Source: Mesorhizobium sp. ZC-5
GTDB taxonomy: Bacteria > Pseudomonadota > Alphaproteobacteria > Rhizobiales > Rhizobiaceae
Direction: 5' to 3'
Assembly: GCF_025753855.1 (NCBI RefSeq)
Contig: NZ_JAOWPT010000001.1
Coordinates: forward strand, 124,001-188,000
Length of the DNA stretch: 64,000 nucleotides
Under the pieces are notes generated by a model. That model did no database searches and was not told the DNA's origin. It saw only the letters and a program-made list of their open reading frames with translations. The translations under genes and the position numbers were made by a program. Positions within the stretch are counted from its first letter, which is position 1, and each line of letters begins with the position of its first letter. Positions 40,265 to 63,091 of the stretch are shown here, piece by piece.

Positions 40265-40306
40265 ATTGGACACCTCCGAACAGGGTTGCTGCGCTGCAAT
40301 ACGCAA

Positions 40307-43577: not shown

Positions 43578-43650
43578 GGCGCACCGCCTGCACAGGAACG
43601 ACGCAGCGGCGGACGTCGAAGCAGCAAACCGCTGAGCCGGAGAAGTGGGG

Positions 43651-44241: not shown

Positions 44242-44257
44242 CGACAACTGGCCGAAC

Positions 44258-44788: not shown

Positions 44789-45292
44789 CTAGGTCTGAGA
44801 GGGGAAAATGCCGAACATCGAGATGATGAAGTTCAGGCAGAGATAAGGGGCGAAGTTCGTATGCGGCTGACTATCGCCCTGCGGCGTGACGGATTGCGGC
44901 GACAGTCCGACGGTCGGTGGCGCGGCATAGAACGGCGTGGCAGTCAGCGGCGTTCCGATCGTGTTGCCGGCAGCATTCGGCGTCGAGTTGGCATCGGACG
45001 AAGCCGCGAATGGGTGTGTGTGGATGGGCAGTTGATTGGTCGTCAGCAAAACGGTTTCGGTACCCGCCAGTTCGCCGATGGAGAAGCCGGAACCTTGATG
45101 AACCGGGATGCGCCCGCGAAGGTCCGGCAAGCCGAAAGTGGACTCGCCGTCGCCGCCATAAGTCGTACCGATCAGCTGGAACAGCGTCTCGTTTTCGGAG
45201 ATCGCTATGAGCTGTCCCTCGCACATCGACCAGCCGGCCGGCGCGAAGTTGCCAGCGAAGATTCGGATTTCACCGATATAGGGCTGTGCCAC
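44789..45292 (-). CDS. Phage-tail-collar (MdpB-like) protein 2
   Basis: A 167-residue paralogue of the neighbours: EIRIFAGNFAPAGWSMCEGQ, LFQLIGTTYGGDGESTFGLP, GRIPVHQGSG and a C-terminal LCLNFIISMFGIFPSQT. It is the most divergent of the three at its C-terminus (no Cys in the final strand). It starts 12 bases after gene 3 and lies nine bases before gene 1. Confidence 0.88.
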   Translation of the reverse strand: MAQPYIGEIRIFAGNFAPAGWSMCEGQLIAISENETLFQLIGTTYGGDGESTFGLPDLRGRIPVHQGSGFSIGELAGTETVLLTTNQLPIHTHPFAASSDANSTPNAAGNTIGTPLTATPFYAAPPTVGLSPQSVTPQGDSQPHTNFAPYLCLNFIISMFGIFPSQT

Positions 45293-45304: not shown

Positions 45305-45814
45305 TCAGTTCTGGCTCGGGAAAATGCCCTGAAGGGCGATGCAGAAGCTCAGCGTCAGATAGGGCTGCATATTGTTGTGTGCCTGGCTGCCGCCGGCATT
45401 GCCAATGGTTGCCGGCTGCAATCCGACCGGCGAGGTGGCGGCGCGATAGGCTTCGTAGTTTCCGGACGTCGCCAGCATCAGGCTGCTGGATGGGATAGCG
45501 GTCGTGCTGGTGACGCTCGTTGCTTGCAGGGTATGCTGATGCGTCGGCATTTCCTGGATCGTCAGCGTATGGGCCTGCTCGCCGGCAGCCTGGCCAAGGA
45601 AATGTCCCTCGCCACCGGTATGAGTCGGCGTGCGGCCCTGCAAGTTCGGCAGTCCGAATGTCGTCTGCCCGTTGCCGCCGTAGACCGTACCGAGCAGCGA
45701 GAACAACGCCTGGTTCTGGTTGATCGGAAGCAGTTGGCCGTTGCACAGGGCCCACCCCTTAGGGGGGAAGTTGAACGACATGATCCGGATTTCGGCTAAA
45801 AACGGCTCAGCCAC
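45305..45814 (-). CDS. Phage-tail-collar (MdpB-like) protein 3, GTG start
   Basis: First gene of the collar operon, 169 residues: AEPFLAEIRIMSFNFPPKGW, ALCNGQLLPINQNQALFSL, TVYGGNGQTTFGLPNLQGR and a C-terminal YLTLSFCIALQGIFPSQN. The start is GTG at 45814, eight bases after GGGAGG; this aligns exactly with the ATG of its two paralogues (MADPF, MAQPY). An upstream ATG at 45871 would lie almost at the predicted transcription start and is rejected. Confidence 0.88.
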   Translation of the reverse strand: MAEPFLAEIRIMSFNFPPKGWALCNGQLLPINQNQALFSLLGTVYGGNGQTTFGLPNLQGRTPTHTGGEGHFLGQAAGEQAHTLTIQEMPTHQHTLQATSVTSTTAIPSSSLMLATSGNYEAYRAATSPVGLQPATIGNAGGSQAHNNMQPYLTLSFCIALQGIFPSQN

Positions 45815-45979
45815 GACACACGCCTCCCTGATTGGAATAATCAGATTACACATGTCGAACGCAAAGTCCACAGCGTTCTAATTATAATATATGTCGGTTC
45901 AGAAAAATAAAATCGAACGAACTTGAGCGGTTATAAAGTTAACAATATTTAACCAAGACAGAAGGATTTCCGTCTGAAG
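45815..45979 (-). promoter_or_regulatory. AT-rich promoter island of the collar operon
   Basis: This 165-base gap is far more AT-rich than its surroundings. On the minus strand a TATAAT (45886-45881) could be the -10 of the collar operon, with a leader of about 60 bases. CTGATT (45828-45833) and AATCAG (45839-45844) form a small hairpin whose edge touches the Shine-Dalgarno. A weak hairpin (AGACGGAA / TTCTGTCT) follows the giant-gene stop. Confidence 0.5.
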
Positions 45980-48900
45980 TTAATTGGATACATAAACGGA
46001 ATAGTATTCACCTCGCGGTGCATAAACAACATTTGGCAAGCGGCGCTCGCCGGTTTGCAGCCAGCCATACATCAACGTCGAGCTTTGGTCGGCCGCATAG
46101 GTGTCGCCATAGCCCAGCATGTGGCCGAACTCATGCATGACGGTGGTCAGGAGATCGTACTGACCGGCAGGTGCCTGGGTGCCGTCGGCAAGCATGCGGG
46201 TTTCGCCGACCCGATTGGCGAACTCCTCGTCGTTCAGCGGCGTGGTGTCAACGAACCAGCCATGGCCAGCGCCATCGTCATCTATCCGGATATGCGAGCC
46301 ACCTTCCAGGCCGAGGTAGTTACCGCCGAGATCGGCGATCTCGAACGTCGCCGCGTTGAGTACTGCCAGTTGCTCGTCGGTCAGGCCGATAGCCACCCAG
46401 CGATCGATGGCGGCGGCAATGATCCGATCCAGCGTGTCACCGGTGAGCACGTCGCCCCACATATCCTCGCCGACAGCGGCAACGCCGCCTTCGGCTGCCA
46501 GTAGCGGCGTGCTCGGTAGCGTCGGGGTTCCCGGCAGCAGGATCGTGTTGTTCTCAACGACGGGAACGTCGCCGGCGCCTGGCAGAATCGCCGTCGTCGA
46601 TGACGGATTGTTAGTGGCAAGAACAACCGCCGAATCGTTGGACCCGGACGCGCCGCGCGCAAGCACTATACTGCCGCCGGTTGCCTCACGAACATTGACG
46701 CCGACAATGCCGACCGCAGCGGTATAATTGACGTCGTTACCACGTACGTCGGCATGGCCGATGGCGCCGTTGCGGGCAGCAACCGAAATCATCGTGACTG
46801 CGTTCACATCGGTCGCCGTCACCACGTTGTTCGTTACGGTGGCATGGAATTCGGGGGTTCTGCCAGCATCGGGTGCATCAACGAGGATCGCCCGGGCTGC
46901 GCCCGAATTATAGGTGACGTTGTTGCTGTCGATCAGGAACCTGGCTTGTGACACCTGACCGGTCAAGCTGCTCACGAGTGCCAGAATCGCGTGGTTGGTC
47001 GCACTCGCCGGCGAGACGACCGTGTTGTTCTGGATCGTCGCCTCGAGCAGGGAAGAACTCGTGCCCTGACCGGGGACCTGCCCGACGAAGATCGCGACAC
47101 CGCCGAAGCCCGAAATCGTATTGCCCTGGGCCGGAGACGGACCGCCGATCATCACCCTGGCGTCGGCATTGCCGCCGTTTGAGATGACAACGCCTTCATT
47201 GCCCTGTGTGCCGCGCGTGATGGTGTTGCTGCTGATGGTTGCGTTCAGGATGGAGTTTTCCAGGGCGCTGATTTGGATCGCCTGCGATTTGTTGTTCGAG
47301 AACTGGTTGTTGTCGATATGGACGAAGGCCTGCGCCGTCCCCCCGAATTCCATCTGGATGCCGTCGGAGCCGCCGGTAAGGGAGTTGTCATGGATGTTCG
47401 AGTTGCTGATCGTCAGGTTCATCGTACCTGACTGGTTGTAGACTTCGACATGGTGCTCGACGGAACCGCTGATATCGACATTGTCGATCAGAGAATTGCC
47501 GAACAGGCCGTTGCCACCCAACACATCGCCAAACGCAATGGCGCCCTCGATGACACCGGTGTTAGTGCCGATCGTGCCGTTGATGACGCTGTCTTCCAGC
47601 GAGAAGCCGGTGACGGACATGCCTCGGATCGCACTGTTCTGGAAATCGTTCAATTGCATCCATGCCAGCCGGACATCGGCGGTGTTGTTCAGATAGATGC
47701 CGTTGCCGGTGGTCGTGGCGCCGTCGGCGCCGGTCTTGTTGGCGATGGTGCCGCCGGAACCTGCCGTTCCATTGCCTGTGACATGCAGCCCGCCCGCGGA
47801 GCCCGTCGTGTCGAGGACGATACCCGTGGCGCTGCCGCCGTTCGATGAGATCGATCGGAACGTCACATCGGCTGCGCTGATATTGGTGTTAGCGATGTTG
47901 AGCGCCGTACCGGTACCCGAGTTGATCGTGTTGCCCGTGCCCTGCACGGTCACCGTGCCGCCGCCGGTGGCATTGAAGCCGGTGCCGGACGTGGTGTTGA
48001 TGACCAGCCCGCCACCGGTGAAGTTGATCGTCGCGCCGGTGTTGGTCTGCAGGTCGACACCTCTGCCACCGGTGGTGAGCGTCTTGGTGGCGCCGCTGAA
48101 GTTGATCACGGCGGTGCCGGAATTGTTGTTGACGTCGATGCCGTTGTCGACGCCGCCGGTGGCGCTGAGGTTGCCGCCGAAGCTGACGGTACCGGCGGTG
48201 CGGCCGGTCACCTCAACGATGTTGCCCACCGTGGTCTTGCTGACCGCCGCGTTGATGGTGATGGTGTTGTTGTCGCCCGCGGCGCCGTTGATATCGACGC
48301 CGATGCCGTTCGGATCATCGTCGCCGGCGCCGCCGATGTTGCCGCCGCTGATCGTGATGTTGCCGTTGTCGCCGGAAATATCGATGCCGTCGCCGGCGAC
48401 ATCATCGATGCTGACCGAGCCGAAGGTGACGGTGCCCGGCGACGCGTTGACGACCAGGCCGTCGCCGGTCGAATTGTCGATGGTGACGGCGCCGACGACA
48501 TTCAGCGAACCCGACATGCCGGTGAGGCTGATGCCGTTGGTGCCGCCGCCGGCGGTCGTCGACGCGAACGTCATGCCAGCGGTCACGCCGTTGAGTATGA
48601 GCGCAGTTCCGCTGGATGCGCCGATCGTATTCTGATTCGCACCTGTCGTGACGTTGACCGTGCCGCCGCCGGTGGCGGTGAAGCCGGTGCCCGAGGTTGT
48701 GCTGATGGCCAGCCCGCCGCCTGCGAAATCGATCGTCGCGCCGGTGTTGTTGGTCAGGCTGACGGCGTTCGCGGTTGTCGAAGTGATCGACTTCGTGCCA
48801 CCCGAGAAGGTGATCGTGCCGGCAGCCACTTGATCGATGAAGATGCCGTTCTGGCCCGCGACAGTGTGCGTGATGTTGCCGGACAGCGTGATGTTGCCGG

Positions 48901-51900
48901 CTCCCGCCGTGCGGTCCTGGATGTCGATCGTTCGGCCGCTGCCCGTTGTATTGGAAATGGTTCCGGTATAGCTCAACCCTGCTGTGCCGCCGGTGCTGGC
49001 GGTGCCAGCTCCATCTCCGATACGAATGACTGGACCGGTGCCGCCGCCGTTGAGCGCGCCGGAACCGAGATTGACCGCGGCCGTGGTCGAACCCGAGACG
49101 GTGTTCATGATCACCGCGCTGACGCCGCCGGCGGTCTTGTTCGTGGACGCGAAGTTGACGCCGCTTGCGCCGATTGTAATGCCGCTGAGATTAACCGCCG
49201 TCGCGGTCGCTCCGGCGCTGAGCGCTCCGGTGCCGGTGATGGTAAGCGTGCCGCCGCCATCGGCCTGCAAAGCCGCACCGGTGGCGGCGCCGCTGGCGCT
49301 GATCGCGGAACCGGCGAAAGCCAGCGTCGCGCCGTTGGAAACGTCGACCGCATTGCCCGAGCCGGTTGTCTGTAGCGTCGATGCGCCGGCGAAACTGATT
49401 GAGTGTGCGGCGCTGTTGACGACGGTAAGGGCATTGTTCGCGTTGGCCACGACGATGCCGACGCTTCCCGCGGCAGTGAAGCTGGTCGTGCCGCCGGTGT
49501 TGTTGTTGAAGCTCAGCCCGTTGTCCAACCCACCACTTACGCTCAGATCACCGCCGAAGCTGACCACGCCGCCGGAGCGGCTGTCCACCTGCACGATCTT
49601 GCCCGCATTCGCCTTGGCGATGCTGGCGTCGATTGTGATGGTGCCGCTACCGCCGTTGACGAACACGCCACGACCGGTCGGATCGGTGGTGTTGCCAATC
49701 GTGCCGCCGCTGATCGTGACCGCACCGGTGGCAGTGGTGGCGTCGATCTGGAAGCCGTCGTCGCCGCTCCCGTCGATGGCGATGCTGGAGAGATTGATCG
49801 TGCCGACTAGTCCGGTGATGAACAGCCCGTCGCCGGTCGAGTCGGCAATGTTAACGGTGCCAACTGTCAGCGAGCCGGACATCTGCGTGAGACTGATGCC
49901 GTTGGTGCCGCCGCCGGAGGTGATCGAGTCGAGCACCATGTTGACGGTGGTCGGGTTGATCAGCAGCGCGGTGCCGTTGTTCGAGGTAATCTGGGTGGTG
50001 CCCACATCGACGATATTGACCGTGCCGGAAGTGGTGGCGCGGAAGCCGAAAGCCCCGGCACCGTTGACAGTGATGTCGACGCCGCCGTTGAAGGCATAGG
50101 TGCCGGTATTGGCGCCGAGATCGACGCCGTCGCCATTGGCGCCGCCGTCGTTGAGGATGGTGACGAGACCTGTGAAGGTGGCGTTGGCGGCCGAGTTGAT
50201 GATTACGATGCTGTCGAGGCTGGCGTCGTCGATCCGCGTCGTGCCGGTCACCGTCATCGACCCGGCATCGAGATTGTCCACGCGAACGCCGGCGGCAACA
50301 TTGTCAACGTCGAGACTGGCGATGTCGATGTCGAAACCGATGCCGGTGATGTTGCTGACGGCCAGCCCGGCGCCGGTGGCTCCGGTGGCGTTGCCGATGC
50401 CAACCGCGCCGAAATCGAGATTCAGGTTCTGAGCTATATCTTCGACGAAGATACCGACGCTACCCGGCGTCGCTGCGGTGCGGTTGATGTCGACGGCACC
50501 AAAGTTGATCGTCACATTGCTGCCGAAGGTGACGGTGCCGGAAATCCACACCCCGGCCGAACCGTGATTGTTCAGCGTCGTCAGGCCGGTGACAGTGAAT
50601 GACGAGTTGGCCGCCAGATTGGCCAGTTCGATACCGGTGGATGCTACCGTGCCAGTCGAGGCGATCGTGTCGAACGTGACGCCGGTGGTGACACCACCGA
50701 GGTTGACCGCACCCGCGCCAGTCGCGGTGATGGTGTTGCCGGCGCCGGAAATGTTGATGGTGCCGCCGTTGATCGCGACGAGGCCAAACGTGGTGTTGGT
50801 GACGATGTCGAGGCCGCCGGTGAAATTGACGGTCGAGGTAGTGTTGTTGTTGTTGATATTGATGCCGGTGCTGGCGCCGATCGCCGTGGTTGTGCCAAGG
50901 TTGACAGTGCCCGAGAAGGTGATCGTATTCGCCGCCGTGGCGCCGGTGACGCTGATGCCGCCGGCCAGGGCGCCATTAGAGGCGACGGTGCCGCCAAAGG
51001 CGAAGCTGCCGCCGCCGCGGTTGGCGATCGACACCGCCGTCCCGGATGTGTTGGCGATCGAACTGTCGGAATCGAAGGAGATGGCGGCACTGCCTCCGGT
51101 GATCTGAAGCGCGCTGGCGCCCGAGATGTCGACATCGACGGCATTGATAACGCCGGCGTTGGTGAGCGAAATGCCGCCGGCCGTGCCCCCGGTGATGGTG
51201 CTGTTGCGGATATCGGCTGAAATGCCGGTGCCGACAATGCCGAAGCCGGCGCCGTTGTTCGAAATCACCAAGCCATCTACTACCGAACCGGCAGCCAAAG
51301 AGAGGGTGCCGCCAACAGCCGTCGACGTGAGAAGCGGAGCACCCGAGCCGTCGGCGTTCGGATTATCGATGAGCCCGGTGGTAATGCCGAACAGCAGCAC
51401 GTTTGCCGGAGCGCCGCCTGCGACCATGAAGGTATCCTGGTCGCGGAAGCTCAGTATGCTCTGGCCCGCGCCGAGGTTGAACGTACCTCCAGCCAGACTG
51501 ATGATGTCCTGCCCGGCGCCTGCGGCGTCCAGCAGCACGATGTAAGTAGCCCCCGACAACTGGGCGGCTGCAATGCTGCCCGGATCGTTGCGCGTGCCGA
51601 TGCCGGTTGCGCCATCCTGCACCCAGAATGCGTTGACGCTGAGGCTGCTGGTGTCGCCAACCAGATTGACGTCGAGGAAGTCGTAGGGGCCGCTTGCCGC
51701 ATTGAGACCGGCGACGACGATCGGTGTGGTCGCATCGATTGTCGAAGCCGCCAGATCGGGGTCCACGTTTGATCCGTCGCCATACTGGAAGCGGCCGGTG
51801 ATGTTGGCATTGGTGAGGTCGACGCCGATGGCGACATTCTCGATCGTGCCGGAGTCCACCGTCTCGAAGGTGAGCGTGTTGGCATTGCCTGTGAGATCGA

Positions 51901-54900
51901 TGCCAACCGATCCCGCTGCGACCGGCGTCACGCCGGCGATGTCCAGAGTCTGCAACTGAATGTTGCCGGTGGCCGTGCGCAAATCGACACCGCGCTGGCT
52001 TGCTCCGACGCCGGTTATGTCCACGTTGCCGAAGGTGACGCTGGCATTCGTGCCGGTGATGTTGAGTCCAGCAGTGTTGGCGGAGGCGCCAAGGCCGATT
52101 GTCGTCGCACCGAGGCTCAGCGTTCCCGAATTGCCGCCGAGCTGGATGCCGTCGCCGGTGCTGGTGTTGATCGTGATAGCGCCGAACGTCACGTCACCGG
52201 CAGCACCGGAAATCGACAATCCATCGGCGGCAGCCCCGGTCACCGAAACCGCGGCGGAAATATTGAGCGTCGCACCTGCGCCGAGGCCAGCAATGACGGC
52301 GTTGCCGCCGTTAGTCGCCGTCAGGCTGGTTCCGCTGAAGGCAATCGTGCCGGCAGTTGGTGCGGTGGTCGTGCCGATGTTGAAGAGCTGCGCACCGGCA
52401 TTGGCGATGACATTGCCGGAGAAGGTGACATTACCGGCGGTGCCGTCGATTTCGACCGCCTGGCCTGTTGCACCGGAATGGGTGATGGCCGCGCTTATCG
52501 TAACGACGCCGGTGGCGCCGCCGCTGTTGATATCGAATACATCTTCGGAACCGCTCTGGGTGGCGCTGCCTCCGGTGACGTTGATGGTTCCGGCATTGCC
52601 AGTGAGGCTGTAGGCGTCGGCGCCATTGGCAGAAACGGTGAGTCCGTTGAGCGCGATGGTGCCGGAGACTTGGCTAGCAATCGCGACGCTCGCCGCCGTG
52701 GCCGGGCCGATCGAGCCACCACCAACGGTCACGCCAGCGGTCGAGTTGGCTATGCTGAGCCCACTGCCTGCCGCGCCGTCGATATTGACCGTGGTGAAGG
52801 TGACGGCGCCGTTTGCTCCGGTTAGGTTGATGCCATGAGCCGCCGTGTTGTCGATGGTCGCCGACACAAAATTGAAGGTCGTACTCGAGCCACCGCTTAT
52901 CTCGATGCCGTCGCCCGCAGCCGTTCCAGCAACGGTAACATTGCCGCCGGTAAAGGAACCGCCGTCGACGTTGGACAGCAGGATGCCGTCGCCTGCAGCA
53001 ACGACGCCCGAGGTCGAAAGCGTTTCAAATGAAACGCCGCCGGCTCCAACTGTTGCATTGGTCCAGTTCAGAATCTGGCCGGTAGCAGTGAGGATGCTTT
53101 CAGTGAGGCCCGACGCGGCGACCGCGATGCTGCCGCCCGTCGCATTGAAGCCGGTGCCGCTCCCGGTTTGGATATCCAGCCCACCGGAGAATGCGGTCGA
53201 ACCTCCGCTTTGCGACACGCCTGCACCACTTGTGGTGTCGATGGCGACAAGGCCACTCGTGGTCAGCGCACCGCTTGCCCAGCCGATACCGCCTCCGTTG
53301 CCCACGGCATCGTTGTCGATCGTCACCGCGTTGAAGCTGAAGGTTCCGGTGTTGGTGTTGATTGCGCTGATACCGAAGCCCGTCGTGCCCGTAATCGACG
53401 TATTTCCTGTGACGGCGAACGTTCCGTCCACCTGGTCGAAGAGAATGCCGTTGGTCCCGCCGGTGGCGGTGATGCTGTCGAACTCCATATCGACTGTCAG
53501 CGGGTCGAGCAGCAGCGCCATGCCGCCGGTCGTGTCGATGTTGGCGTCGCCGGCGCCGCCGGAGTTGACCGCCAGCGTGAAGGTGGTTCCGAGCGTCTTG
53601 GTGTCGACCTCGAGGCCGGTCCCTGCATTGTTAAAAATGTTCAGCGAGTCATAGGAAAGATTCCCGCTGACATTGATGAACGACAGGCCGGCGCCTTGCA
53701 CGCGTTGGTTGGCAAGCGTGCCTTGGCCAATGTTCGTGGTGCCGCCGGCGCTCACGATGTCGGCGGTACCAGGATTGCCGTCGGCGTCGAAGGTGACCTG
53801 GTTGAACACCATGCCGCCGCCGATGCCGTTGGCGGTGACCGTGTTGGCGTCGAGCGAGGTAACGTAGGTGCTGTTGGGGGTAGAACTGAGCACATCCACG
53901 GCCTGCGAGCCTGCCAGCATCGTCTGCCAGGTCGTGTTGTCAAGCGAGAGCGCCACGGCGGCCGCTGCCGCAGTGTGCCTGACATGTAGGCCGTCCCCTG
54001 GCGAGGTGACCGAATTGCCGGAAATCAGGTTGAGATTGACGCCGCCCGAGCCGGAGGCGTCGATGTCGATGCCATTGCCCGTGGCGCCGCCGGCGAAGCT
54101 GCCGATATTGAGGCCGGTGAAGTTGAAGGTACCGGTGTTGCTTGTCTGGTTTATGTCGATGGCGTTCAGTGCACCGGCAGTGCCCGAAACCGTCATGCCC
54201 GTGAAGGAAGCGCTACCGCCGAAATTGCTCGCCGAAACGCCGCTGCTGGTCAGCACGCCAGGCGTTGCGCCGTTCGGCAAGGTTCCGCGCGTTATGCTGA
54301 CATTGCCGGCCGTGCCCCCGGACAGCGAGATCAACTGACCGGCAATGTTGATGTCGTTGTTCAGGATCGACAGGCTCGACTGCAACCCGGTGGTTTCAAA
54401 GGCGAAATTGCCTACGGCGACATCCTGGATCGTAACGCCCTCGATAGTGATGCCGCTATTGTTGAACGCCGCATCGGCACCGTCGATAAAGAACATTGCT
54501 CCGCCGCCGCCGGTGAAATCGAATGTGGTGTGGCGGATCTCGTTGTCGCCATACAACTGGAACATATCGTTCGCGCCGCCACCGACCACCGCCTCGTCGG
54601 CGGTAACGTTGCCGCCGAAACCGCCGAGGTCGCCAGATACATTGGCCGGCTGTTCTACACCGGTCGAGACCGCATTGCCGTTGCCGAAGCCGGTGATCGA
54701 CTGGCCGGCGTCCAGCGTGAATGCTGTACCTAGCGCACTGAGGTCGATGGCGCCGACGAAGGCGAAGGTTTCGGTTCCGGAGAGTGCCTGCGCCGCGGCG
54801 ACCGATATCGTGCTTACCGTCTGGCTCAGGCCGAAAGTTCCGGCATTGATGAAACCGCCGCCCTGCGAGACGAGGATCACAGCGTTTGCCACGGGCGGCA

Positions 54901-57900
54901 GATTGGCATTGCCGGTAAAGGCAACGTCGTCGAAATCATACGTGCCGGACGCCGGATCGAGCCCGACAGCGTTCACGGTGAACCCGCCGGCTACTGCCGA
55001 GATCGTCGAATTGCGTCCATTGGCGTCGGCAGCCTCGCCGTCACCGAAAGTGAAATTGGCGTTGGCGGTCGTGGCGGTCGTGAGGCCTCGCGACAAATCG
55101 ACACCGATGCCGATGTTGGTAATCGACGATCCCGTGGCGAAACTGATGGCGCGGTTGTTGAGCGTCGACGACAGGTCGATGCCCCTGCCCGTTAGCGCAC
55201 CGGTTCCGGTGATCGACGTGACGCCGAAGATCGCAGTCGTCTCGCTGCCGGTGAAATTGATACCGGTCTGATCGGTGCCGACGCCGGTGATCGTCGTCTG
55301 GCCGAAGGTAACGTCGGTATTGGTGCCGGAGAAACGGATTCCCGACGTATTCGGAAAAGCCCCGAGCGCGACATTCGTGGTCCCGAACGTCAGCGTGCCA
55401 GCATTTCCGCTGAGGCCGATTCCGGTGCCGCCGGACATGGTGACCGAGCCAAACGTGGCGCTGCCGGCAACGTTTTGAACGACCAGTGCACCGCCCGTTA
55501 TCGAAAGCGGTGCACTGGCATCGAACACTGCGCCGGCTCCGAGTGCACCGACCACGCCGCCGCCACCGCCCGTCGCTGTCAGCGAAGCGCCGGAGAACGA
55601 AACCTCGCCGCCGGTGAGCGCCGTCGTGTTGCCTATCCGGAAGAGGTCGCCACCAGCGGTTGCCGAAAGCGTGCCGGTGAAGGCGGCCGAGCCGCCAGTG
55701 ATTCCATCAACGCGCACGGCAGCGGTGGAAGAGAAACCCGCATTGGTGATGTCGGCGCCGACCGAGATTGTCGCACTGCCGCCGGAAACGACCACGCCAT
55801 CGCCTGTACCGCTGTTGGCGATCGTGCCGTCGCTGATCGTGATGGTGCCGGTGTTGTTGGTCAGCGCGACGTCGTGCCTGAACACCGAGGTCGTGACCAG
55901 GTTGGCGACTGTAAGATTTATAGCGCTGTTCTCGACAACCAGGCCCGAGGTGAATTCGCCGGTCGTGTCGATCGTCGTGGTGCCGTTGAACGTATAGGCG
56001 CCGGTGACATTGGAAAGCCGGATGGCGATACCCGTCGCAGCAGCAACGCTTGAAATGTCGACGCTGCCGAACGTGACGGGTCCGCCACTGGTGTTCTGGA
56101 TATTGATGCCGGTCTGCGTGGCTCCACCGGAGCCGTCCACCGTCACGCTTGCGAAATTGACGCCGCCGGCACCGATGGTCATACCGGTGCCGCCGATGGT
56201 CATGCCATTTTCGCTGACACCTGCGCCGGTCGAAATCGTGTTGCTCCCACCCGTCACCGTCAGCGTTCCGCCGTCGACGGCTCTGAAGGCGAAGCCTCCA
56301 TCCGTGTTCAGGTTCAGCCCGCCGCTGAAATTGATCGCGCTGCCGGTGTTGCCGGTAAGGTCGATGGCGTTGGCAGCACCGGTGTTCGCGGTGATTACGC
56401 CACCGAAATTCACGCTGCCGCCAGTCATCGCATCAACGCGCACGGCACTCGCGGCATTGTTCTGCGTGATCGTGCCATTGTAGTTGACGGTGGCGGTGGA
56501 ACCGCCGACCGAAACGGCGATGCCGCTTGTATTGACGACCGAACTCCCCGTCCCGAAGGTCAGCGTTCCGCTCGATCCGTTCAGGATGCCGATACCGAGA
56601 TTGCCGCCGGTGATGTCGAGGTTCGCGAAGTCGGCGGTGCCGTCAAAATTGTCCACCCGCAGACCGGCAATCGTGCCGCCCGCGATCTGGGTAGTGCCGG
56701 TGAAATTGACCGTTGCAGCCGAGTTGGCAAGCACGATACCGGTCTGTACCGGGCCTTGCACGTCCAGATTGTTGATCGTGATGGTGCCGAGGGCGCCGTC
56801 CAGGAAAGCACCGGTCGCCGCGCCGCGGATCACCACGCCTGAGCTGTTGAGGCCTGTTATGCCGCTTCCGTCGAGCGCTATAAACCCTGACGTGGCAATG
56901 AGGTTCGCAATGACGTTGCCATCGGAAAGATCGATCGTGTTGCCGGCTGCGTTATTGAGCGTCGGCGCACCTTGCAAGAAAGGATCGTCGAGCGTGGCGC
57001 CGGTGACGACATTGGTGCCCGTCACATTGGCGGGCGGTCCGCCGATGTCGACGGTCGCACCGTTGGCGAACGACACCAGCGACTGCCCGGCCGCAAGGGT
57101 AAAGCCATCGGCATCGGTGTCGATGACTTCGGCCGGAGCGGTGCCGACCAGGACGAACACCGTGTTGGCGCCGAGCCCGAGATCATCGGCTAGGTCGGCA
57201 GCGATAAGATCGTTGATTGTGGAGCCATCGCCGGCTCCAGTGCTGACCCTGCCGACGAAAACGACACCGGCGGCATCGAACAGTTGCGGCCCGGTGAGGG
57301 TCGTAGCGCCAAAGGAATAGGTGCCGCTTGCGGCATCCAGCCCGCGCATGTCGAGCGATGCGGTAATGCCCTCGATCGAACCGCCACCGAAGGTGAAATC
57401 CGTATTTGCTGTCGCTCCTCCGATGCCGTTGGTGCCCATCTGCACGCCGGTGTCGACGTCCGCAATAGTGCCGCCATTGGTGATGGTGACCGAACCGCCC
57501 AGCGTAGCGGAAAGGTCGATGCCGGCGCTGCCAGCCACATTCGTGCCGGTGACGTCGAGCGATGCCGCAGTGAAAGTCGAGGAGCTTAGAGCCAGATCGA
57601 GCCCCGCTCCGCCCTCCATGCCGGTGATGTCGACATTGCCGAAAGTGATGGTGCCGTTGGCGTCCGCGACCGAGATGCCGCCAAATGCCTGGTCAATGGT
57701 CACGTCGCCAAACGTCACCGCGCCGGAATTTCCTTCGAACCAACCGAGAGCAATGCCGTAGTCGAACGTGCGGGTAATATCCACCGGTCCGGCAAAGGTC
57801 ACGGGGCCGGTGGAGCCGTCGATGCCGATGCCAACAGTGCCTGCCTGGTCGATGGTGACTGGTCCGCCGAAAGTGATTGCGCCCGAATTGTCTGCAAGGA

Positions 57901-60900
57901 AGCCCAGGGAGATGCCGGCTTGGGCGCTCCGGGAAATATCCACCCGCCCGGCGAACGTTACCGGTCCGGTGGAATCGTCGATCCCGATGCCGACTGACGC
58001 TGACTGATCAATGGAAACCGGACCATCAAACGTCACCACCCCTGCGGAACGCTGGATCGCAATGCCGCCGCCCAAGCCGACATTGGTCAGGTCGACGCTG
58101 CCAAACGTGATGTTGGCGGTGCTATCGGCGATTTGCAGACCACCGATTGAGGTATTGGCGACAGTGGTTGCGCCGGTCATGACAAATTCGCCGGAAACCC
58201 CGGCGAGCGCCGCACCGAATAGACCGCCGTCTTGCGAAAGGCTGGTGAGGACCAAATCCAGGTCTGCGCCCAGCGCGGCAATGCCACCGACGGTGTTGCC
58301 AGAGATGGTGCCGCCAGTTGCCTGGAAGGCACCGCCGCCGGCCGAAATGACCTCGATGCCGAGGATGCCGTTGTTGAGCGCATTCAGCGTGTCAAACGTG
58401 TAGACGCCATCGCCGAATATGGTCAGACCGAAATCCGCATTGTTCGAAAGCAGTGTCGCGCCAGTAAAATTGAACGTCCCGTCGCTGTCTATCAACAGAC
58501 CAGAACCGCCATTGCCGGTCGAGGTGAAGTTCGAGCCGCTGACATTCGTCGTCGTGCCCGTGAACGACGCACCGTGCAGCCCGGCGCCTGTCACCACAAC
58601 GCCCGTCAGCGTCAACCCATCTATATTGTCGCCAAGAATGCCGACCCCACCAACACCATTCGAGATGTCGATGTCGGCGATGATGGTCCCGTCACCGAGC
58701 ACTACCGTGTCGCCGGCGCCAAGATTGGTAAGTGTGGCCGCGCCGTTGCCGGTAGGGTCGTCCTGGATGAACCCATGCACGACATTGGCGCCGGTGACGT
58801 TGAGCGGCACCCCGCCCAGCGCGTATTGGGCACCGTTGCCAAACGAGGCGAGCGTCTGCCCGTCGTCAAGCGTGAAGCCATCGGCGTCGTCGACCGCCGC
58901 ACCGTCATTGACCAGCACGAAGACGGCGCCGCTATCGGTGTTGGCATCCGCCGTGCCGATCGCCGCGAGATCGTTGACGGACGTACCGTCGCCCGCGCCG
59001 GTCGCGGCCGAACCTACAAAAATGATGTTGCTCGAATCGAAAAGCTGCGGACCGTTGAACACGGTCGCGCCGAAGGCATAGCTCCCCGCGAGAGGATTGA
59101 GGCCTCGCGCGTCGAGCGATGCCGTGAGGCCTTCGATCGAACCACCGCCGAAGACGAAGTCCGTGCTCGCTGTCGCGCCGCCGACGCCGTTGGTGCCAAG
59201 CTGGACACCGGTATCGACATTCGCGATGGTGCCGCCATTGGTGATGGTAACCGAGCCGCCAGTCGTACCCGAAAGGTCGACGCCGGTGGTGCCGGCTGAA
59301 TTGTTGCCGGAGACATCGAGGGACGCGGCGGTGAAGGTCGACCTGCTGCCGGCGAGATTGAGGCCGGCAGCGTCGCACCCGCAGATGGCGTCGAGGCCGG
59401 TCACATCAATATCGCCGAAATTGATTGTCCCGTTGACGCCGATCACATCGACGCCGCTCTCGCCCGGATCGGCGACCGTGGTGTCGCCGAACTCCACCGA
59501 GCCCGTATTGTCGACGACGACGATGCCGCTGAACCCGGCGCGGCTGACGGCGGTGGCGCCGTCGAAGCTGACCGCGCCGGTATTATGATTCAGTACGATG
59601 CCTTCTTCGCCGGTGTCGGCGATGGCGACGGGCCCGTCGAATATAACGGTCGCATCGGAGTTTCTGACAATGAGCCCGATGCCGGCGGCGCTGCCGATAT
59701 CGACCGCTCCGTCGAACCTGACTGTACCGCCGGACTGTTCAATGGCGAGTCCGTCACCACCGACGACGCCATCGATCAGCACCGGACCGCCGAAGGATAT
59801 ATCGGCCGTGCTCAATCCGATCAGAATGCCAGCAAATCCAACATTTTTGATGGTCGTCGCCCCGGTCACGGCGAAGCTGCCGCCCACGTCGAGAAGCAAC
59901 AGCCCGCCTAGACCGGCTGCCGGGTTGTCATGGGTGATCGAATCCAGCGTAACATCGAGATCCGTGCCGGAGATAAAAGCGGCGGTGTCGTCATTCCCGG
60001 CGATGCTTCCGCCGGCAATCGACAGGCTCGCGCGTGTCGTCGCGAAAACGGAAAGTCCGCTTCCGGCATTATTCTGGATATTGAGCGTCTCGAAACTGTA
60101 GTCGCCGTCGCCGAAAATCGTCAGACCATCGACGGCATTGCCCGAAAGCGTCGTCGTTCCGCTGAAACTGAAAACGCCATCGCTCTCGATGACAAGCCCG
60201 GCGCCACCATTGCCCGTCGAGGTGAAGTTCAAACCGCCGACATTGGTCGATGTGCCGGTGAACGATGCGCCGTCGAAGCTGGCGCCACTGACTGTGACGC
60301 CGGTTAGCGTCGCGCCATCGATGTTGTCTCCGAAAATACCGACGCCGCCGGCACCGTTGGAGATCGTTATATTGGCAATGACGGTGCCGTCGCCCAGCAC
60401 GACGGTGTTGCCGGCACTGAGATTGGTCAGCGTGGCCGCGCCGTTGCCGGTCGGATCACCCTGGACCACGCCATTTTGTACATTGTCACCGGTAACGTTG
60501 AGCGGCACCCCGCCCAGCGCATATTCGGCGCCATTGCCGAACGAGGCGAGCGTCTGGCCGTCGCCGAGTGTGAAGCCGTCTGCATCGTTGATGACGCTGC
60601 CATCGTTGATCAGCACGAAGATCGCATCCGCGCCTGCATTGGCATCGGCGGTACCTATCGTGGCGAGATCGTTGACGGAAGAGCCGTCGCCGGCTCCCGT
60701 CGCGGTGGAGCCTACGAAAACGATGTTGGCGGTGCTGAACAGTTGCGGCCCGTTGAAAACCGTCGAGCCGAACGCGTAGGTGCCGGTGAGCGGGTTGAGA
60801 CCGCGCGCGTCCAGCGAGGCGGTGATGCCACCCACCGAGCCGCCACCGAAACTGAAATTGGCATTGGCGGTGTTGGCCAGCGATCCCGCGATGCCGAGCC

Positions 60901-63091
60901 GGACGCCCGTGTCTACATTGGCGATCGTGCCGCCATTGCTGACGGTGATCGCCGAACCGACCTGGGTGCCCGAAAGGTCGATGCCGGTGCTGCCGGCAGC
61001 TCCGGTGCCGGTGATGTTGACCGACTGCGCTGTGAATGTGGTGCGGCTGCCCGAAAAATCGAGGCCTGTTGCGCCAGTCCCAAGGCCTGAGATGACCACG
61101 CCGCCCACCACCACCGGGCCGTTGATGCCGGCGAAGGTGATCGCGTCCGCCCCCGGGTTGATGATCGTGATGTCGGCGAAGCGGATCGATGCCGGCGAAT
61201 TGGAAATGGCTATCGCCGCACCAGACGTGTTGGAGATCGTCGTCGCGCCGGTGACCGTGAAGCTGCCGGTGACGTCGTCCAGAATGACGCCCGAAGTGCC
61301 CCTGCTATGGGTGATCGAGGTAAGTACGACGTTGGCGTTGATCGGATCGATCTTGACGCCGACGTCGCCATTGCCGGAAATCGTGCCGCCGGTCGTTTTG
61401 AACGTACCGGTGGCCGATGTCACCTCGATGCCGTCGTCGGTGTTGTTCAGCGCATTGACGGTCTGGAAATTATAAGTGCCGTTGCCGGTTATCGACAGAC
61501 CATCGACAGCGTTGCCAGAAAGCAATGTCGCGCCGGTGAAGTTGTAGGTGCCGTCGCCTTCGATGTGCAGCCCATCGCCGCCATTGTCCGTCGCGCTGAA
61601 GTTCGAGGCGTTGATGCCAGTCGAGGTTCCGGTGAATGACGCGCCGTGCGAACCAGTTCCGTCGACTGTAACGCCGGTGAGCGTCGCGCCGTTGATGTTG
61701 TTGCCGAGTATGCCGACCTCACCACCGGTGACGGTGATGCCTTGCAGCGTGTTGCCGTTGCCGAGTGAAAGGACCGGATTTGCCGGGTTGGTGCCCTGAA
61801 TGGTGCCGTCGCTGCCGCCGAAAGCGAACGAACTGATGGTGCCGTTGAGCAAAATTGCCTGCACCGTCTGGCCGCCGCCTATAACCGTCTGGCCATTGGT
61901 GAGGGTTACGCCGCCTGTCAGTAGATTCCCTGAGCCGCCGAGCGCCACAACAAAGCCGGAGCCGGCTTTGGTGACCGCATCGTCAAGCGTCGTTGGATCT
62001 CCGAGCGTCCCAAGGCCAAGCGTATTTTCGCCGTCCGCGAAAAAGAAAAGACCGAACTCGGATCCAGTCCGTACATTGATTGCCAGGCGGCTGAGCGATG
62101 CAGCGGTCTCGTCGGTGTCGAGCCTGACGCCGATATCGCCGCGAACACGCTCATTGGCCCGCTTCCGCAAACCTTCGCTCACATTATAAAGCGGCTCGCG
62201 ATCGCCGTCGGCCACCCGCTGGGTGCCGCCCAACGGGATCGTCAGCCTGGCGAAACCTGCAAACGTCGTGTCGTCACGGTCATCGTAGCGAACCTCGCCG
62301 CCGAACGTCAGCGAGGCGCCGCTGTCGCCGAGCACGTTTCCAACCTTGTATTCGAAGCCTGCCTTTCCGCCTGTAACACTGTCCGCCGTGTTGCCGGCGT
62401 CTTCGAAATGATAGCCGCCGATATGCAGCCGCAGCGCATGGTCCTTGGGCAGGTCGATCGGCGCCTGCACACCAAACTCGCCTTCCACGCCCCAAGAGGC
62501 ATAATCGCGGCGGTTGAGCACCGAAATCTGCTCGAGCAACTGATTGCCGACCAGCGACAGGCTGGATGCTGAGGTCGAAGTCTCCCGCTCTTGGTCGCCG
62601 AACGGCAGGTGGACGTTGACATGCGCATCGAAATTCGTGGCGATCGCCTCGACGCCGAGCGTAGCTCCGGTGAACTGGTGTCCGTCGAGCCTTTCGACGT
62701 TGAGATAGGCGTAGCCGCCGAGGATCAGGTCCGGATTGACAACACGGCGCAGACCGAGACCGACGTCACCGCCGGTTCCTTCAGAGAAATCGTGCTTGAG
62801 GCGCAAGTCGAGAAAGACAACCGAATCGGGAGTCTGCGTAAGCGGAATAAAACCTTCGAGCGACGAATATGCGCCTTGATGATCGCCACCAACGATCGTC
62901 TGGACCTGCGGCTGCCACAGTGCGTCCTGAGCATGGGCGGCCCCTGCGCCGGCGAGCGCAATCGTGGAGAGTGCGGAAGTTTTCCAGAGATGGCGCGAGA
63001 ATTCGCTCCGGTAATGCCGTGACGAACGGCTTTCACCGGATTCAATCGATTTCTTCGACTGAGTCTGGCGAGTTACTTTCGCCGAATACAT
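45980..63091 (-). CDS. Giant inverse autotransporter, beta-helix fibre with C-terminal zincin-like domain
   Basis: One intact frame of 5,703 residues. Residues 1-54 form an extended signal peptide (cleavage after AHA). About 55-290 is a barrel of the intimin/invasin (inverse autotransporter, IAT_beta) kind: LGLRRVVNPDLILGGYAYLN, VEGEFGVQAPIDLP, FAGFARLTIPLGG. About 340-5530 is repeat-rich right-handed beta-helix sequence, low in Lys and nearly free of Cys, with about six restarts of a cap-like module (near 344, 788, 1354, 1939, 2735 and 3820) such as FVGSTATGAGDGSSVNDLA. Residues about 5535-5703 form a zincin-like domain: HEFGHMLGYGD (H5653, E5654, H5657, D5663) and a Met-turn-like LMY (M5674), ending GERRLPN. 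In this topology the barrel anchors the N-terminus and the C-terminus is exported to the tip. Adhesion, with proteolysis or self-processing, is inference. The promoter should lie in the 261-base gap shared with the divergent ialB-like gene. Confidence 0.9.
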   Translation of the reverse strand: MYSAKVTRQTQSKKSIESGESRSSRHYRSEFSRHLWKTSALSTIALAGAGAAHAQDALWQPQVQTIVGGDHQGAYSSLEGFIPLTQTPDSVVFLDLRLKHDFSEGTGGDVGLGLRRVVNPDLILGGYAYLNVERLDGHQFTGATLGVEAIATNFDAHVNVHLPFGDQERETSTSASSLSLVGNQLLEQISVLNRRDYASWGVEGEFGVQAPIDLPKDHALRLHIGGYHFEDAGNTADSVTGGKAGFEYKVGNVLGDSGASLTFGGEVRYDDRDDTTFAGFARLTIPLGGTQRVADGDREPLYNVSEGLRKRANERVRGDIGVRLDTDETAASLSRLAINVRTGSEFGLFFFADGENTLGLGTLGDPTTLDDAVTKAGSGFVVALGGSGNLLTGGVTLTNGQTVIGGGQTVQAILLNGTISSFAFGGSDGTIQGTNPANPVLSLGNGNTLQGITVTGGEVGILGNNINGATLTGVTVDGTGSHGASFTGTSTGINASNFSATDNGGDGLHIEGDGTYNFTGATLLSGNAVDGLSITGNGTYNFQTVNALNNTDDGIEVTSATGTFKTTGGTISGNGDVGVKIDPINANVVLTSITHSRGTSGVILDDVTGSFTVTGATTISNTSGAAIAISNSPASIRFADITIINPGADAITFAGINGPVVVGGVVISGLGTGATGLDFSGSRTTFTAQSVNITGTGAAGSTGIDLSGTQVGSAITVSNGGTIANVDTGVRLGIAGSLANTANANFSFGGGSVGGITASLDARGLNPLTGTYAFGSTVFNGPQLFSTANIVFVGSTATGAGDGSSVNDLATIGTADANAGADAIFVLINDGSVINDADGFTLGDGQTLASFGNGAEYALGGVPLNVTGDNVQNGVVQGDPTGNGAATLTNLSAGNTVVLGDGTVIANITISNGAGGVGIFGDNIDGATLTGVTVSGASFDGASFTGTSTNVGGLNFTSTGNGGAGLVIESDGVFSFSGTTTLSGNAVDGLTIFGDGDYSFETLNIQNNAGSGLSVFATTRASLSIAGGSIAGNDDTAAFISGTDLDVTLDSITHDNPAAGLGGLLLLDVGGSFAVTGATTIKNVGFAGILIGLSTADISFGGPVLIDGVVGGDGLAIEQSGGTVRFDGAVDIGSAAGIGLIVRNSDATVIFDGPVAIADTGEEGIVLNHNTGAVSFDGATAVSRAGFSGIVVVDNTGSVEFGDTTVADPGESGVDVIGVNGTINFGDIDVTGLDAICGCDAAGLNLAGSRSTFTAASLDVSGNNSAGTTGVDLSGTTGGSVTITNGGTIANVDTGVQLGTNGVGGATASTDFVFGGGSIEGLTASLDARGLNPLAGSYAFGATVFNGPQLFDSSNIIFVGSAATGAGDGTSVNDLAAIGTADANTDSGAVFVLVNDGAAVDDADGFTLDDGQTLASFGNGAQYALGGVPLNVTGANVVHGFIQDDPTGNGAATLTNLGAGDTVVLGDGTIIADIDISNGVGGVGILGDNIDGLTLTGVVVTGAGLHGASFTGTTTNVSGSNFTSTGNGGSGLLIDSDGTFNFTGATLLSNNADFGLTIFGDGVYTFDTLNALNNGILGIEVISAGGGAFQATGGTISGNTVGGIAALGADLDLVLTSLSQDGGLFGAALAGVSGEFVMTGATTVANTSIGGLQIADSTANITFGSVDLTNVGLGGGIAIQRSAGVVTFDGPVSIDQSASVGIGIDDSTGPVTFAGRVDISRSAQAGISLGFLADNSGAITFGGPVTIDQAGTVGIGIDGSTGPVTFAGPVDITRTFDYGIALGWFEGNSGAVTFGDVTIDQAFGGISVADANGTITFGNVDITGMEGGAGLDLALSSSTFTAASLDVTGTNVAGSAGIDLSATLGGSVTITNGGTIADVDTGVQMGTNGIGGATANTDFTFGGGSIEGITASLDMRGLDAASGTYSFGATTLTGPQLFDAAGVVFVGRVSTGAGDGSTINDLIAADLADDLGLGANTVFVLVGTAPAEVIDTDADGFTLAAGQSLVSFANGATVDIGGPPANVTGTNVVTGATLDDPFLQGAPTLNNAAGNTIDLSDGNVIANLIATSGFIALDGSGITGLNSSGVVIRGAATGAFLDGALGTITINNLDVQGPVQTGIVLANSAATVNFTGTTQIAGGTIAGLRVDNFDGTADFANLDITGGNLGIGILNGSSGTLTFGTGSSVVNTSGIAVSVGGSTATVNYNGTITQNNAASAVRVDAMTGGSVNFGGVITANTGAANAIDLTGNTGSAINFSGGLNLNTDGGFAFRAVDGGTLTVTGGSNTISTGAGVSENGMTIGGTGMTIGAGGVNFASVTVDGSGGATQTGINIQNTSGGPVTFGSVDISSVAAATGIAIRLSNVTGAYTFNGTTTIDTTGEFTSGLVVENSAINLTVANLVTTSVFRHDVALTNNTGTITISDGTIANSGTGDGVVVSGGSATISVGADITNAGFSSTAAVRVDGITGGSAAFTGTLSATAGGDLFRIGNTTALTGGEVSFSGASLTATGGGGGVVGALGAGAVFDASAPLSITGGALVVQNVAGSATFGSVTMSGGTGIGLSGNAGTLTFGTTNVALGAFPNTSGIRFSGTNTDVTFGQTTITGVGTDQTGINFTGSETTAIFGVTSITGTGALTGRGIDLSSTLNNRAISFATGSSITNIGIGVDLSRGLTTATTANANFTFGDGEAADANGRNSTISAVAGGFTVNAVGLDPASGTYDFDDVAFTGNANLPPVANAVILVSQGGGFINAGTFGLSQTVSTISVAAAQALSGTETFAFVGAIDLSALGTAFTLDAGQSITGFGNGNAVSTGVEQPANVSGDLGGFGGNVTADEAVVGGGANDMFQLYGDNEIRHTTFDFTGGGGAMFFIDGADAAFNNSGITIEGVTIQDVAVGNFAFETTGLQSSLSILNNDINIAGQLISLSGGTAGNVSITRGTLPNGATPGVLTSSGVSASNFGGSASFTGMTVSGTAGALNAIDINQTSNTGTFNFTGLNIGSFAGGATGNGIDIDASGSGGVNLNLISGNSVTSPGDGLHVRHTAAAAAVALSLDNTTWQTMLAGSQAVDVLSSTPNSTYVTSLDANTVTANGIGGGMVFNQVTFDADGNPGTADIVSAGGTTNIGQGTLANQRVQGAGLSFINVSGNLSYDSLNIFNNAGTGLEVDTKTLGTTFTLAVNSGGAGDANIDTTGGMALLLDPLTVDMEFDSITATGGTNGILFDQVDGTFAVTGNTSITGTTGFGISAINTNTGTFSFNAVTIDNDAVGNGGGIGWASGALTTSGLVAIDTTSGAGVSQSGGSTAFSGGLDIQTGSGTGFNATGGSIAVAASGLTESILTATGQILNWTNATVGAGGVSFETLSTSGVVAAGDGILLSNVDGGSFTGGNVTVAGTAAGDGIEISGGSSTTFNFVSATIDNTAAHGINLTGANGAVTFTTVNIDGAAGSGLSIANSTAGVTVGGGSIGPATAASVAIASQVSGTIALNGLTVSANGADAYSLTGNAGTINVTGGSATQSGSEDVFDINSGGATGVVTISAAITHSGATGQAVEIDGTAGNVTFSGNVIANAGAQLFNIGTTTAPTAGTIAFSGTSLTATNGGNAVIAGLGAGATLNISAAVSVTGAAADGLSISGAAGDVTFGAITINTSTGDGIQLGGNSGTLSLGATTIGLGASANTAGLNITGTNASVTFGNVDITGVGASQRGVDLRTATGNIQLQTLDIAGVTPVAAGSVGIDLTGNANTLTFETVDSGTIENVAIGVDLTNANITGRFQYGDGSNVDPDLAASTIDATTPIVVAGLNAASGPYDFLDVNLVGDTSSLSVNAFWVQDGATGIGTRNDPGSIAAAQLSGATYIVLLDAAGAGQDIISLAGGTFNLGAGQSILSFRDQDTFMVAGGAPANVLLFGITTGLIDNPNADGSGAPLLTSTAVGGTLSLAAGSVVDGLVISNNGAGFGIVGTGISADIRNSTITGGTAGGISLTNAGVINAVDVDISGASALQITGGSAAISFDSDSSIANTSGTAVSIANRGGGSFAFGGTVASNGALAGGISVTGATAANTITFSGTVNLGTTTAIGASTGININNNNTTSTVNFTGGLDIVTNTTFGLVAINGGTINISGAGNTITATGAGAVNLGGVTTGVTFDTIASTGTVASTGIELANLAANSSFTVTGLTTLNNHGSAGVWISGTVTFGSNVTINFGAVDINRTAATPGSVGIFVEDIAQNLNLDFGAVGIGNATGATGAGLAVSNITGIGFDIDIASLDVDNVAAGVRVDNLDAGSMTVTGTTRIDDASLDSIVIINSAANATFTGLVTILNDGGANGDGVDLGANTGTYAFNGGVDITVNGAGAFGFRATTSGTVNIVDVGTTQITSNNGTALLINPTTVNMVLDSITSGGGTNGISLTQMSGSLTVGTVNIADSTGDGLFITGLVGTINLSSIAIDGSGDDGFQIDATTATGAVTISGGTIGNTTDPTGRGVFVNGGSGTITIDASIAKANAGKIVQVDSRSGGVVSFGGDLSVSGGLDNGLSFNNNTGGTTSFTAAGSVGIVVANANNALTVVNSAAHSISFAGASTLQTTGSGNAVDVSNGATLAFAGSAISASGAATGAALQADGGGTLTITGTGALSAGATATAVNLSGITIGASGVNFASTNKTAGGVSAVIMNTVSGSTTAAVNLGSGALNGGGTGPVIRIGDGAGTASTGGTAGLSYTGTISNTTGSGRTIDIQDRTAGAGNITLSGNITHTVAGQNGIFIDQVAAGTITFSGGTKSITSTTANAVSLTNNTGATIDFAGGGLAISTTSGTGFTATGGGTVNVTTGANQNTIGASSGTALILNGVTAGMTFASTTAGGGTNGISLTGMSGSLNVVGAVTIDNSTGDGLVVNASPGTVTFGSVSIDDVAGDGIDISGDNGNITISGGNIGGAGDDDPNGIGVDINGAAGDNNTITINAAVSKTTVGNIVEVTGRTAGTVSFGGNLSATGGVDNGIDVNNNSGTAVINFSGATKTLTTGGRGVDLQTNTGATINFTGGGLVINTTSGTGFNATGGGTVTVQGTGNTINSGTGTALNIANTNISAADVTFRSISSNGGSATGIVLDTTGSAGGLHVTGNGTAGSGGTIANKTGADGATTTGNGIYLNNTADVRLAWMQLNDFQNSAIRGMSVTGFSLEDSVINGTIGTNTGVIEGAIAFGDVLGGNGLFGNSLIDNVDISGSVEHHVEVYNQSGTMNLTISNSNIHDNSLTGGSDGIQMEFGGTAQAFVHIDNNQFSNNKSQAIQISALENSILNATISSNTITRGTQGNEGVVISNGGNADARVMIGGPSPAQGNTISGFGGVAIFVGQVPGQGTSSSLLEATIQNNTVVSPASATNHAILALVSSLTGQVSQARFLIDSNNVTYNSGAARAILVDAPDAGRTPEFHATVTNNVVTATDVNAVTMISVAARNGAIGHADVRGNDVNYTAAVGIVGVNVREATGGSIVLARGASGSNDSAVVLATNNPSSTTAILPGAGDVPVVENNTILLPGTPTLPSTPLLAAEGGVAAVGEDMWGDVLTGDTLDRIIAAAIDRWVAIGLTDEQLAVLNAATFEIADLGGNYLGLEGGSHIRIDDDGAGHGWFVDTTPLNDEEFANRVGETRMLADGTQAPAGQYDLLTTVMHEFGHMLGYGDTYAADQSSTLMYGWLQTGERRLPNVVYAPRGEYYSVYVSN
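57230..57531 (-). repeat. Internal repeat of giant gene, copy C
   Basis: DNA closely similar to 58991-59292 (offset 1,761 bases, 587 codons). It covers the GPQLF-FVG cap segment and the following VDTGVQMGTNG stretch. Confidence 0.75.
58623..59292 (-). repeat. Internal repeat of giant gene, copy B
   Basis: Aligns with copy A at a constant offset of 1,698 bases (566 codons) at the three checkpoints I compared, with many near-identical runs. It encodes the FVGSAATGAGDGTSVNDLA module and its flanks. Confidence 0.85.
60321..60990 (-). repeat. Internal repeat of giant gene, copy A
   Basis: Counterpart of copy B, 1,698 bases apart. It encodes the FVGSTATGAGDGSSVNDLA module and the DNIDGATLTGVTVSGASFDG coils. 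Confidence 0.85.

Follow-up and report, generated by a model that had tools for sequence, protein, structure and literature searches.

A giant, probably beta-helical inverse autotransporter with a metzincin-like tip, followed by three tail-collar genes, in Mesorhizobium sp. ZC-5

The stretch of Mesorhizobium sp. ZC-5 DNA analyzed here (64,000 nucleotides, hereafter the window) was found to carry a single gene that joins an inverse autotransporter (IAT) barrel of the intimin/invasin type to a very long passenger and a metzincin-like C-terminal domain. We favor the explanation, to which we assign a probability of roughly 0.7, that the product is a giant type Ve fiber that would display an exchangeable metzincin head. 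The larger result is a family of giant IATs that are linked to three genes for Phage Tail Collar domain proteins (Collar1 to Collar3) and that have exchangeable ends. Neither the Collar operon nor the modular boundary of the tip had been part of an earlier, sequence-only reading of this DNA, several claims of which are taken up below.

RESULTS

One frame encodes a leader, an IAT_beta-type barrel and a long passenger

The gene and the features assigned to its product are as follows.

45980..63091, minus strand: giant inverse autotransporter gene, 5703 aa in a single frame
62930..63091, minus strand: extended N-terminal leader with Sec-like signal, residues 1-54 (boundary by eye)
62222..62923, minus strand: IAT_beta-type barrel, about residues 57-290 (Pfam and profile matches)
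46529..62059, minus strand: passenger fiber, about residues 345-5521, probably a right-handed beta-helix
46499..46528, minus strand: linker TPTLPSTPLL, residues 5522-5531
45983..46507, minus strand: metzincin-like tip, residues 5529-5703
46103..46135, minus strand: HEFGHMLGYGD, predicted zinc-binding motif, residues 5653-5663

As the sequence-only reading had stated, the frame runs from ATG to stop over 5703 codons without interruption, and the whole protein contains 2 Cys residues. A chance frame was excluded, since a catalytic motif is conserved within these 17 kb and related frames are present in other genomes. The leader is long and basic and continues into a hydrophobic stretch ending at AGAAHA-QD, where a signal and cleavage site were recognized by eye. 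Similarity to the Aminobacter protein starts at window residue 8, upstream of the annotated start of the Aminobacter protein.

The N-terminal barrel that the same reading had proposed was upheld when the IAT_beta family (PF11924) was searched by Pfam scan, with a match at residues 62-173 (E = 3e-7; 30.7 bits versus a curated cut-off of 22.3) that spans model positions 49-156 of 279. A six-frame family search of this genome for PF11924 gave no match and was overruled by the direct protein scan. IAT_beta was likewise detected in all 10 members of a first alignment (E <= 0.01) and in 27 of the 28 of a larger one (E <= 0.001). Among crystal structures, a profile built from ten barrel rows retrieved invasin (4e1t, E = 8.5e-6) and intimin (4e1s, E = 0.0014), a 28-row profile retrieved invasin at E = 1.8e-5 and intimin weakly (E = 0.043), and hhalign against YeeJ of E. 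coli K-12 returned E = 8.9e-6 (probability 83, 90 columns). These matches to known IAT barrels cover the first half of the barrel only; the second half aligns among the relatives only. PDB searches with the two protein ends as single sequences returned nothing significant, and of 32 pattern matches to barrel relatives in viral contigs none was confirmed. The presence of an above-cut-off N-terminal IAT_beta match and a C-terminal passenger in one polypeptide supports the predicted membership of the window protein in type Ve.

The passenger (residues 346-5530) is rich in Gly (18%), Thr (13%) and Ala (12%) and is probably a beta-helix with coils near 25 residues. Pfam Beta_helix was matched below its cut-off, at 20.1 bits over residues 301-4900; by piece, residues 356-800 reached 24.9 bits (cut-off 25.9) and residues 4000-4990 reached 17.6 bits, with no Beta_helix match in the other four passenger pieces scanned. 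Hydrophobic residues were found to alternate (lag 2, z 5.0-6.5), and weaker periodicities were detected at lags 25-26 (z 3.2-3.8) and for Gly at lag 8 (z 4.4). In 200 shuffles, the largest single values were 3.7-5.2 depending on the measure, and these were exceeded by the lag 2 signal and, narrowly, by that of Gly at lag 8 only. A global Fourier test of passenger hydropathy gave no peak above shuffles and no coil period, PDB searches with two passenger pieces found nothing, and no Ig-like or lectin-like Pfam domain, a common but not a defining trait of type Ve passengers, was detected in the pieces scanned. About 5,000 residues of beta-helix, as described earlier for this protein, are thus probable rather than proven, because the Pfam matches are sub-threshold, the periodicity is modest and the Fourier test is null. 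By our own estimate, with coils of about 25 residues that each add 0.48 nm, the roughly 5,180 residues would form a fiber perhaps near 100 nm long.

Three Collar genes follow the giant IATs

The genes downstream of the giant gene, in order, are the three Collar genes and then those for GNAT and SapC proteins, with an oxygenase gene and a DUF6916 gene on the opposite strand.

45305..45871, minus strand: Collar1, Phage Tail Collar domain protein (start uncertain)
44789..45292, minus strand: Collar2
44258..44779, minus strand: Collar3
43645..44241, plus strand: 2OG-Fe(II) oxygenase (PF13640)
43047..43577, minus strand: GNAT acetyltransferase
42683..43054, plus strand: DUF6916 protein (uncertain start; in the extent given here, it runs into the start of the SapC gene)
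41812..42741, minus strand: SapC family protein

The three Collar proteins, of about 170 aa each and encoded in tandem directly downstream of the giant gene, all matched PF07484 (95.6-96.4 bits, cut-off 24) and, as judged by eye, have no signal peptide. Collar2 gave profile matches to a long tail fiber structure (E = 9.6e-10) and to T4 gp12 (E = 1e-4), and no phage gene was found among the neighbors scanned. A minus-strand frame at 43570-44280 was rejected as a gene, despite a misleading 55% match in G127, a genome of a second genus, because the changes between window and G127 concentrate on the third positions of the plus-strand oxygenase frame (74, against 29 and 28 at the others; 199 each). 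Elsewhere near the locus, window positions 36009-40381 hold ABC transporter genes with Peripla_BP_5 and two BPD_transp_2 matches, a transporter which we take to be of the urea or amide type.

The association of Collar genes with giant IATs was found to extend beyond the window. Three Collars lie beside all 15 of the giants first compared, namely 14 IATs of at least 3400 aa from the family search and that of Aminobacter niigataensis, and beside four of four further giants (G738, G851, G691 and G846) from an order sample fetched after the pattern had been seen. Three Collar genes thus follow 19 of the 19 complete giants examined, a figure that is not a count of independent events because the giants are mutually related. 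The giant frames of the order range from 3.4 to 6.8 thousand residues, the longest having 6848 aa. After short IATs (557-1336 aa), Collars were found in none of the 27 cases examined (0/20 in the family and 0/7 in the order, with one region ending 3 kb after the gene). Two IATs of intermediate length were divided, with Collars after that of G003 (1800 aa) and none after that of G628 (2727 aa).

Relatives of the tip were collected by scanning genome contigs for one conserved peptide, and the best 80 of 482 confirmed loci were kept. Collars were detected within the fetched stretch in 22 of these best 80, 18 of them in Bradyrhizobium; one of the 22 (L145) showed two Collars only before its stretch ended. 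In a tree of 81 Collars from 27 arrays, for which the bootstrap had not settled, the proteins fell into three groups mostly by position (support 100/96, 92/95 and 93/85), each mixing sequences from IAT giants, Bradyrhizobium, a planctomycete, Altererythrobacter and Ramlibacter. The exceptions were Ramlibacter, whose order differs, and the rows of G003, which are long-branched and partly misplaced; several rows of a wider class sample fall outside the three groups. By this tree, the Collar triple has probably traveled as a unit.

That Collar triples always accompany giants was rejected in this wide form by the class sample, in which 24 of 142 genomes had Collar matches. Among 12 arrays of at least two Collars examined there (stretches up to 20 kb), two adjoin a frame above 3,500 aa (L214, cadherin-like by Pfam, and L219), a third adjoins a frame that looks polyketide-synthase-like by eye, and several adjoin lasso-peptide-like genes. 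In L207, L209, L215, L216 and L217, the neighbors of the Collar triples, which come with GNAT and DUF6916-like genes, are lasso-peptide-like genes for asparagine synthase, transglutaminase-like, PqqD, HPr-kinase-like and sulfotransferase proteins (Pfam on ten proteins from L207, L215 and L217; L209 and L216 by eye). The spread of the Collars through the class and their varied neighbors lend some weight to the view that they form a mobile accessory module, having its own function (e.g., linked to peptide modification, or phage-derived) and only hitch-hiking behind giants, a view we take seriously but hold at less than even odds, as the link among IATs depends on size (among related giants) and the Collars of IAT and non-IAT giants share the three groups. 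Somewhat more tentatively, the giant, Collar1-3, GNAT and their partners may be parts of one conserved surface machine, in which export of the stalk would use an IAT barrel or some other route, distal head cassettes would be interchangeable, the metzincin being one of them, and the phage-tail-tip-like Collars would assemble with or act on the stalk.

The C-terminal tip belongs to a metzincin-like family

The HExxHxxGxxD motif reported earlier for the C-terminus was located as HEFGHMLGYGD at residues 5653-5663, and the Met of the Met-turn is residue 5674, so that the window tip presents the metzincin-type HExxHxxGxxH/D signature with its Met-turn. The H, E, H and G of the motif and the Met-turn M are invariant across a 28-row tip alignment. 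When the tip was compared with M10 and zincin families, as had been suggested, its metzincin-like nature was supported by profile, but the window copy itself remained below the Pfam M10 cut-off (PF00413; 19.6 bits, 17.3 in another scan, cut-off 24). Ten of the 11 aligned family members match M10 at E <= 0.1 (best E = 2e-11), and the family profile retrieved MMP-11 (E = 2.8e-7) and karilysin (E = 3.3e-7), or E = 6.8e-6 and 2.5e-6, respectively, with a larger alignment. Similarity to the solved metzincins lies mainly around the zinc motif. Motif and profile together support the placement of the tip in a broad, metzincin-like family near the matrixins.

The best 80 of the 482 tip loci were distributed among Bradyrhizobium, Verrucomicrobia, Planctomycetes, Sphingomonas, Betaproteobacteria and others, and the family was also found in 19 plasmid records, many of them cyanobacterial. 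On a Pseudosulfitobacter plasmid (L022, 15001-20720), a LEPR-XLL giant with the same tip family adjoins genes annotated as HlyD-family, site-2-protease-family and SapC. In a Prosthecobacter metagenome-assembled genome (L109, 1582-9651), a giant frame that contains a metzincin-like domain in its interior ends in a single stop codon, after which a frame with an IAT-like barrel continues in the same phase, as if barrel and passenger were separate genes.

Among the 82 tip domains of at least 60 bits in these best 80 of 482 loci, 67 have Asp at motif residue 11, 9 have His and 4 have another residue, and HExxH is missing in 2. Values of dN/dS in pairs of the three closest tips were about 0.10, 0.15 and 0.18. 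That 76 of the 82 domains retain HExxH and an Asp or His at residue 11, and that the closest tips show this purifying selection, suggests that catalysis has been kept, and the tip is predicted to be a protease. The same architecture could instead carry a tip that trims or releases its own or a same-cell fiber, or one that serves as a zinc-stabilized binding head without useful proteolysis. This we regard as unlikely: it would accommodate the six domains that depart from the motif, the existence of tip-less relatives and the occurrence of the family at internal or near-C-terminal positions in giants whose stalks differ greatly, as fits a general maturation or head module, but the conserved ligands and the dN/dS values speak for kept catalysis. 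The display of a catalytic metzincin head on the giant fiber remains our preferred reading.

The tip begins at a modular boundary

The boundary of the tip was revealed by two complete giant IATs, G206 and G241, which match window residues 5101-5528 at 72-85% identity and then stop at the linker (TPTLPSLP or IPTLPSLP followed by the stop codon), where the window protein goes on into the tip; their barrels are 37% identical to that of the window. As these relatives end cleanly where the window tip starts, the tip appears modular. No zincin remnant was found after the ends of 15 giants (best E 0.6). Many other tip-less giants (L083-L093, L096, L015 and L017) end in a short proline tail such as CNTP, CTLP, CVTP or PPLP. 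In a comparison with nine relatives (G127 by its distal part only), the nearest sequences to residues 1-900 of the window protein were those of Aminobacter, G346 and G311, and those to parts of residues 1950-2900 came from G127. The window gene is, by this comparison, a mosaic whose segments have different nearest relatives.

The helix before the tip, with the tip itself excluded, was matched in 29 of the best 80 of 482 tip loci, the best match being to the betaproteobacterium Caenimonas (55% over 558 aa); distal helix identity to the Bradyrhizobium and Caenimonas giants is 33-56%. The barrel profile gave no match in 14 of 15 tip-carrying genomes searched, the exception being Prosthecobacter, where barrels lie in frames other than that of the tip. 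One Bradyrhizobium giant has 13 cadherin stretches and, after the tip, an RTX repeat (23.4 versus 23 bits) that hints at type I secretion. The distal helix and tip thus form an exchangeable cassette that is also found on giants in genomes without an IAT barrel.

The fusion of barrel and tip is rare

An IAT in the Rhizobiales had been presented as exceptional, and this did not hold: the barrel profile matched 45 of 395 genomes of the family and 43 of 397 of the order (the two samples overlap), and the rarity lies in the tip fusion. The tip profile matched 22 of the 395 family genomes, 7 over most of its length and 15 around the motif only, and 12 of the 397 order genomes (7 strongly). Barrel and tip share one frame in the genome of the window only among the 395, and this genome alone is in both lists of the order. 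In two genomes (G048 and G419), both modules are present in different frames. In G127, an assembly of about 380 contigs, a 2516-aa frame that runs off its contig ends in a tip 74% identical to that of the window, with three Collars, GNAT and SapC after it. At another contig edge lies a barrel that is 73% identical to that of the window; tip and barrel are very likely parts of one protein split over contigs. The fusion is therefore rare, with one certain case and one probable case in a second genus. An assembly or gene-boundary artefact joining two giant genes with similar repeats is highly improbable. In its favor are the repetitive nature of giants, the break of the G127 assembly within its giant and the mosaic passenger; against it, the window frame is open for 17 kb inside a 648-kb contig, the tip lies directly before Collar1 in both window and G127, where other giants also end, and the helix before it closely resembles the ends of two complete giants.

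Among three genomes of the genus searched, barrel and tip occur together in that of the window only. One (G001) has neither module, and in G002, very likely M. albiziae DSM 21822, a tip 80% identical to that of the window is present in a genome with no barrel; it adjoins SapC (L097, 9608-11482), and no Collars, GNAT or barrel were found in the stretch of 20 kb examined. The M. albiziae locus is a decayed remnant. The absence of both modules from G001, of the barrel from G002 and of Collars from the 20 kb examined there indicates that the locus is dispensable.

DISCUSSION

In the route we propose, the leader would direct the protein through Sec and the N-terminal barrel would sit in the outer membrane. 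By analogy with intimin, the passenger would be threaded out from its N-terminal side and fold outside as a long solenoid. The metzincin-like domain would emerge last and, once outside, fold, bind zinc and stay attached to the distal end of the fiber, where it would most likely cleave proteins of neighbors, of a host or of the matrix. The three Collars would probably be part of the same surface system.

These findings extend the inverse autotransporters to very long, probably beta-helical fibers in soil-dwelling alphaproteobacteria and give one of them a head that is likely catalytic rather than binding; this head changes at a linker, where it is cleanly gained or lost. The pairing of long IATs with three tail-collar genes offers a testable route to an accessory system of which we found no description. 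In the parts of the published work consulted, type Ve export is described as proceeding from the N-terminal side, driven by folding (PMC6555100); IATs are given as almost exclusively gammaproteobacterial, typically with Big1 repeats and some with lectin caps (PMC6714894); the Ig/lectin rule for their passengers is restated (PMC7697752); and an IAT is reported from a sponge alphaproteobacterium (PMC10947273). The portion of PMC4811931 consulted contains no occurrence of intimin or invasin. In the literature searched, which covers only part of the field, no metzincin-capped IAT and no Collar-linked IAT was found described. The earlier statement that no described protein has this combination agrees with that search, but the architecture is probably not unique, given G127.

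Compared with intimin, invasin and YeeJ, the type Ve proteins with which it has in common an N-terminal leader, an IAT_beta barrel and a long C-terminal passenger, the window protein differs in a passenger that is rich in Gly, Thr and Ala, probably beta-helical and has no Ig-like Pfam domain found, and in a head that is metzincin-like. Its nearest counterparts by barrel are the giant IATs of Aminobacter plasmids and of other genomes of the same order, the closest tip-less barrels being 58-65% identical to its own; these share the three-Collar neighborhood, often with GNAT and SapC, but unlike the window protein have no metzincin tip. The giants of Bradyrhizobium and Caenimonas, in turn, share a related distal helix and the same tip family, and most of the Bradyrhizobium loci also have Collars and GNAT, whereas no IAT barrel was detected in the three of these genomes that were searched, the stalk is cadherin-like in the two proteins scanned and an RTX repeat follows the tip in one. 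With the matrixins (Peptidase M10, MMP-11 and karilysin), the tip family has in common the HExxHxxG zinc motif and the Met-turn, but its predicted third ligand is mostly Asp, and the window tip sits on the end of a giant fiber. The three downstream proteins share the Collar domain (PF07484) with phage tail fibers of the T4 gp12 type, from which they differ in being proteins of about 170 aa encoded in tandem beside a surface-protein gene.
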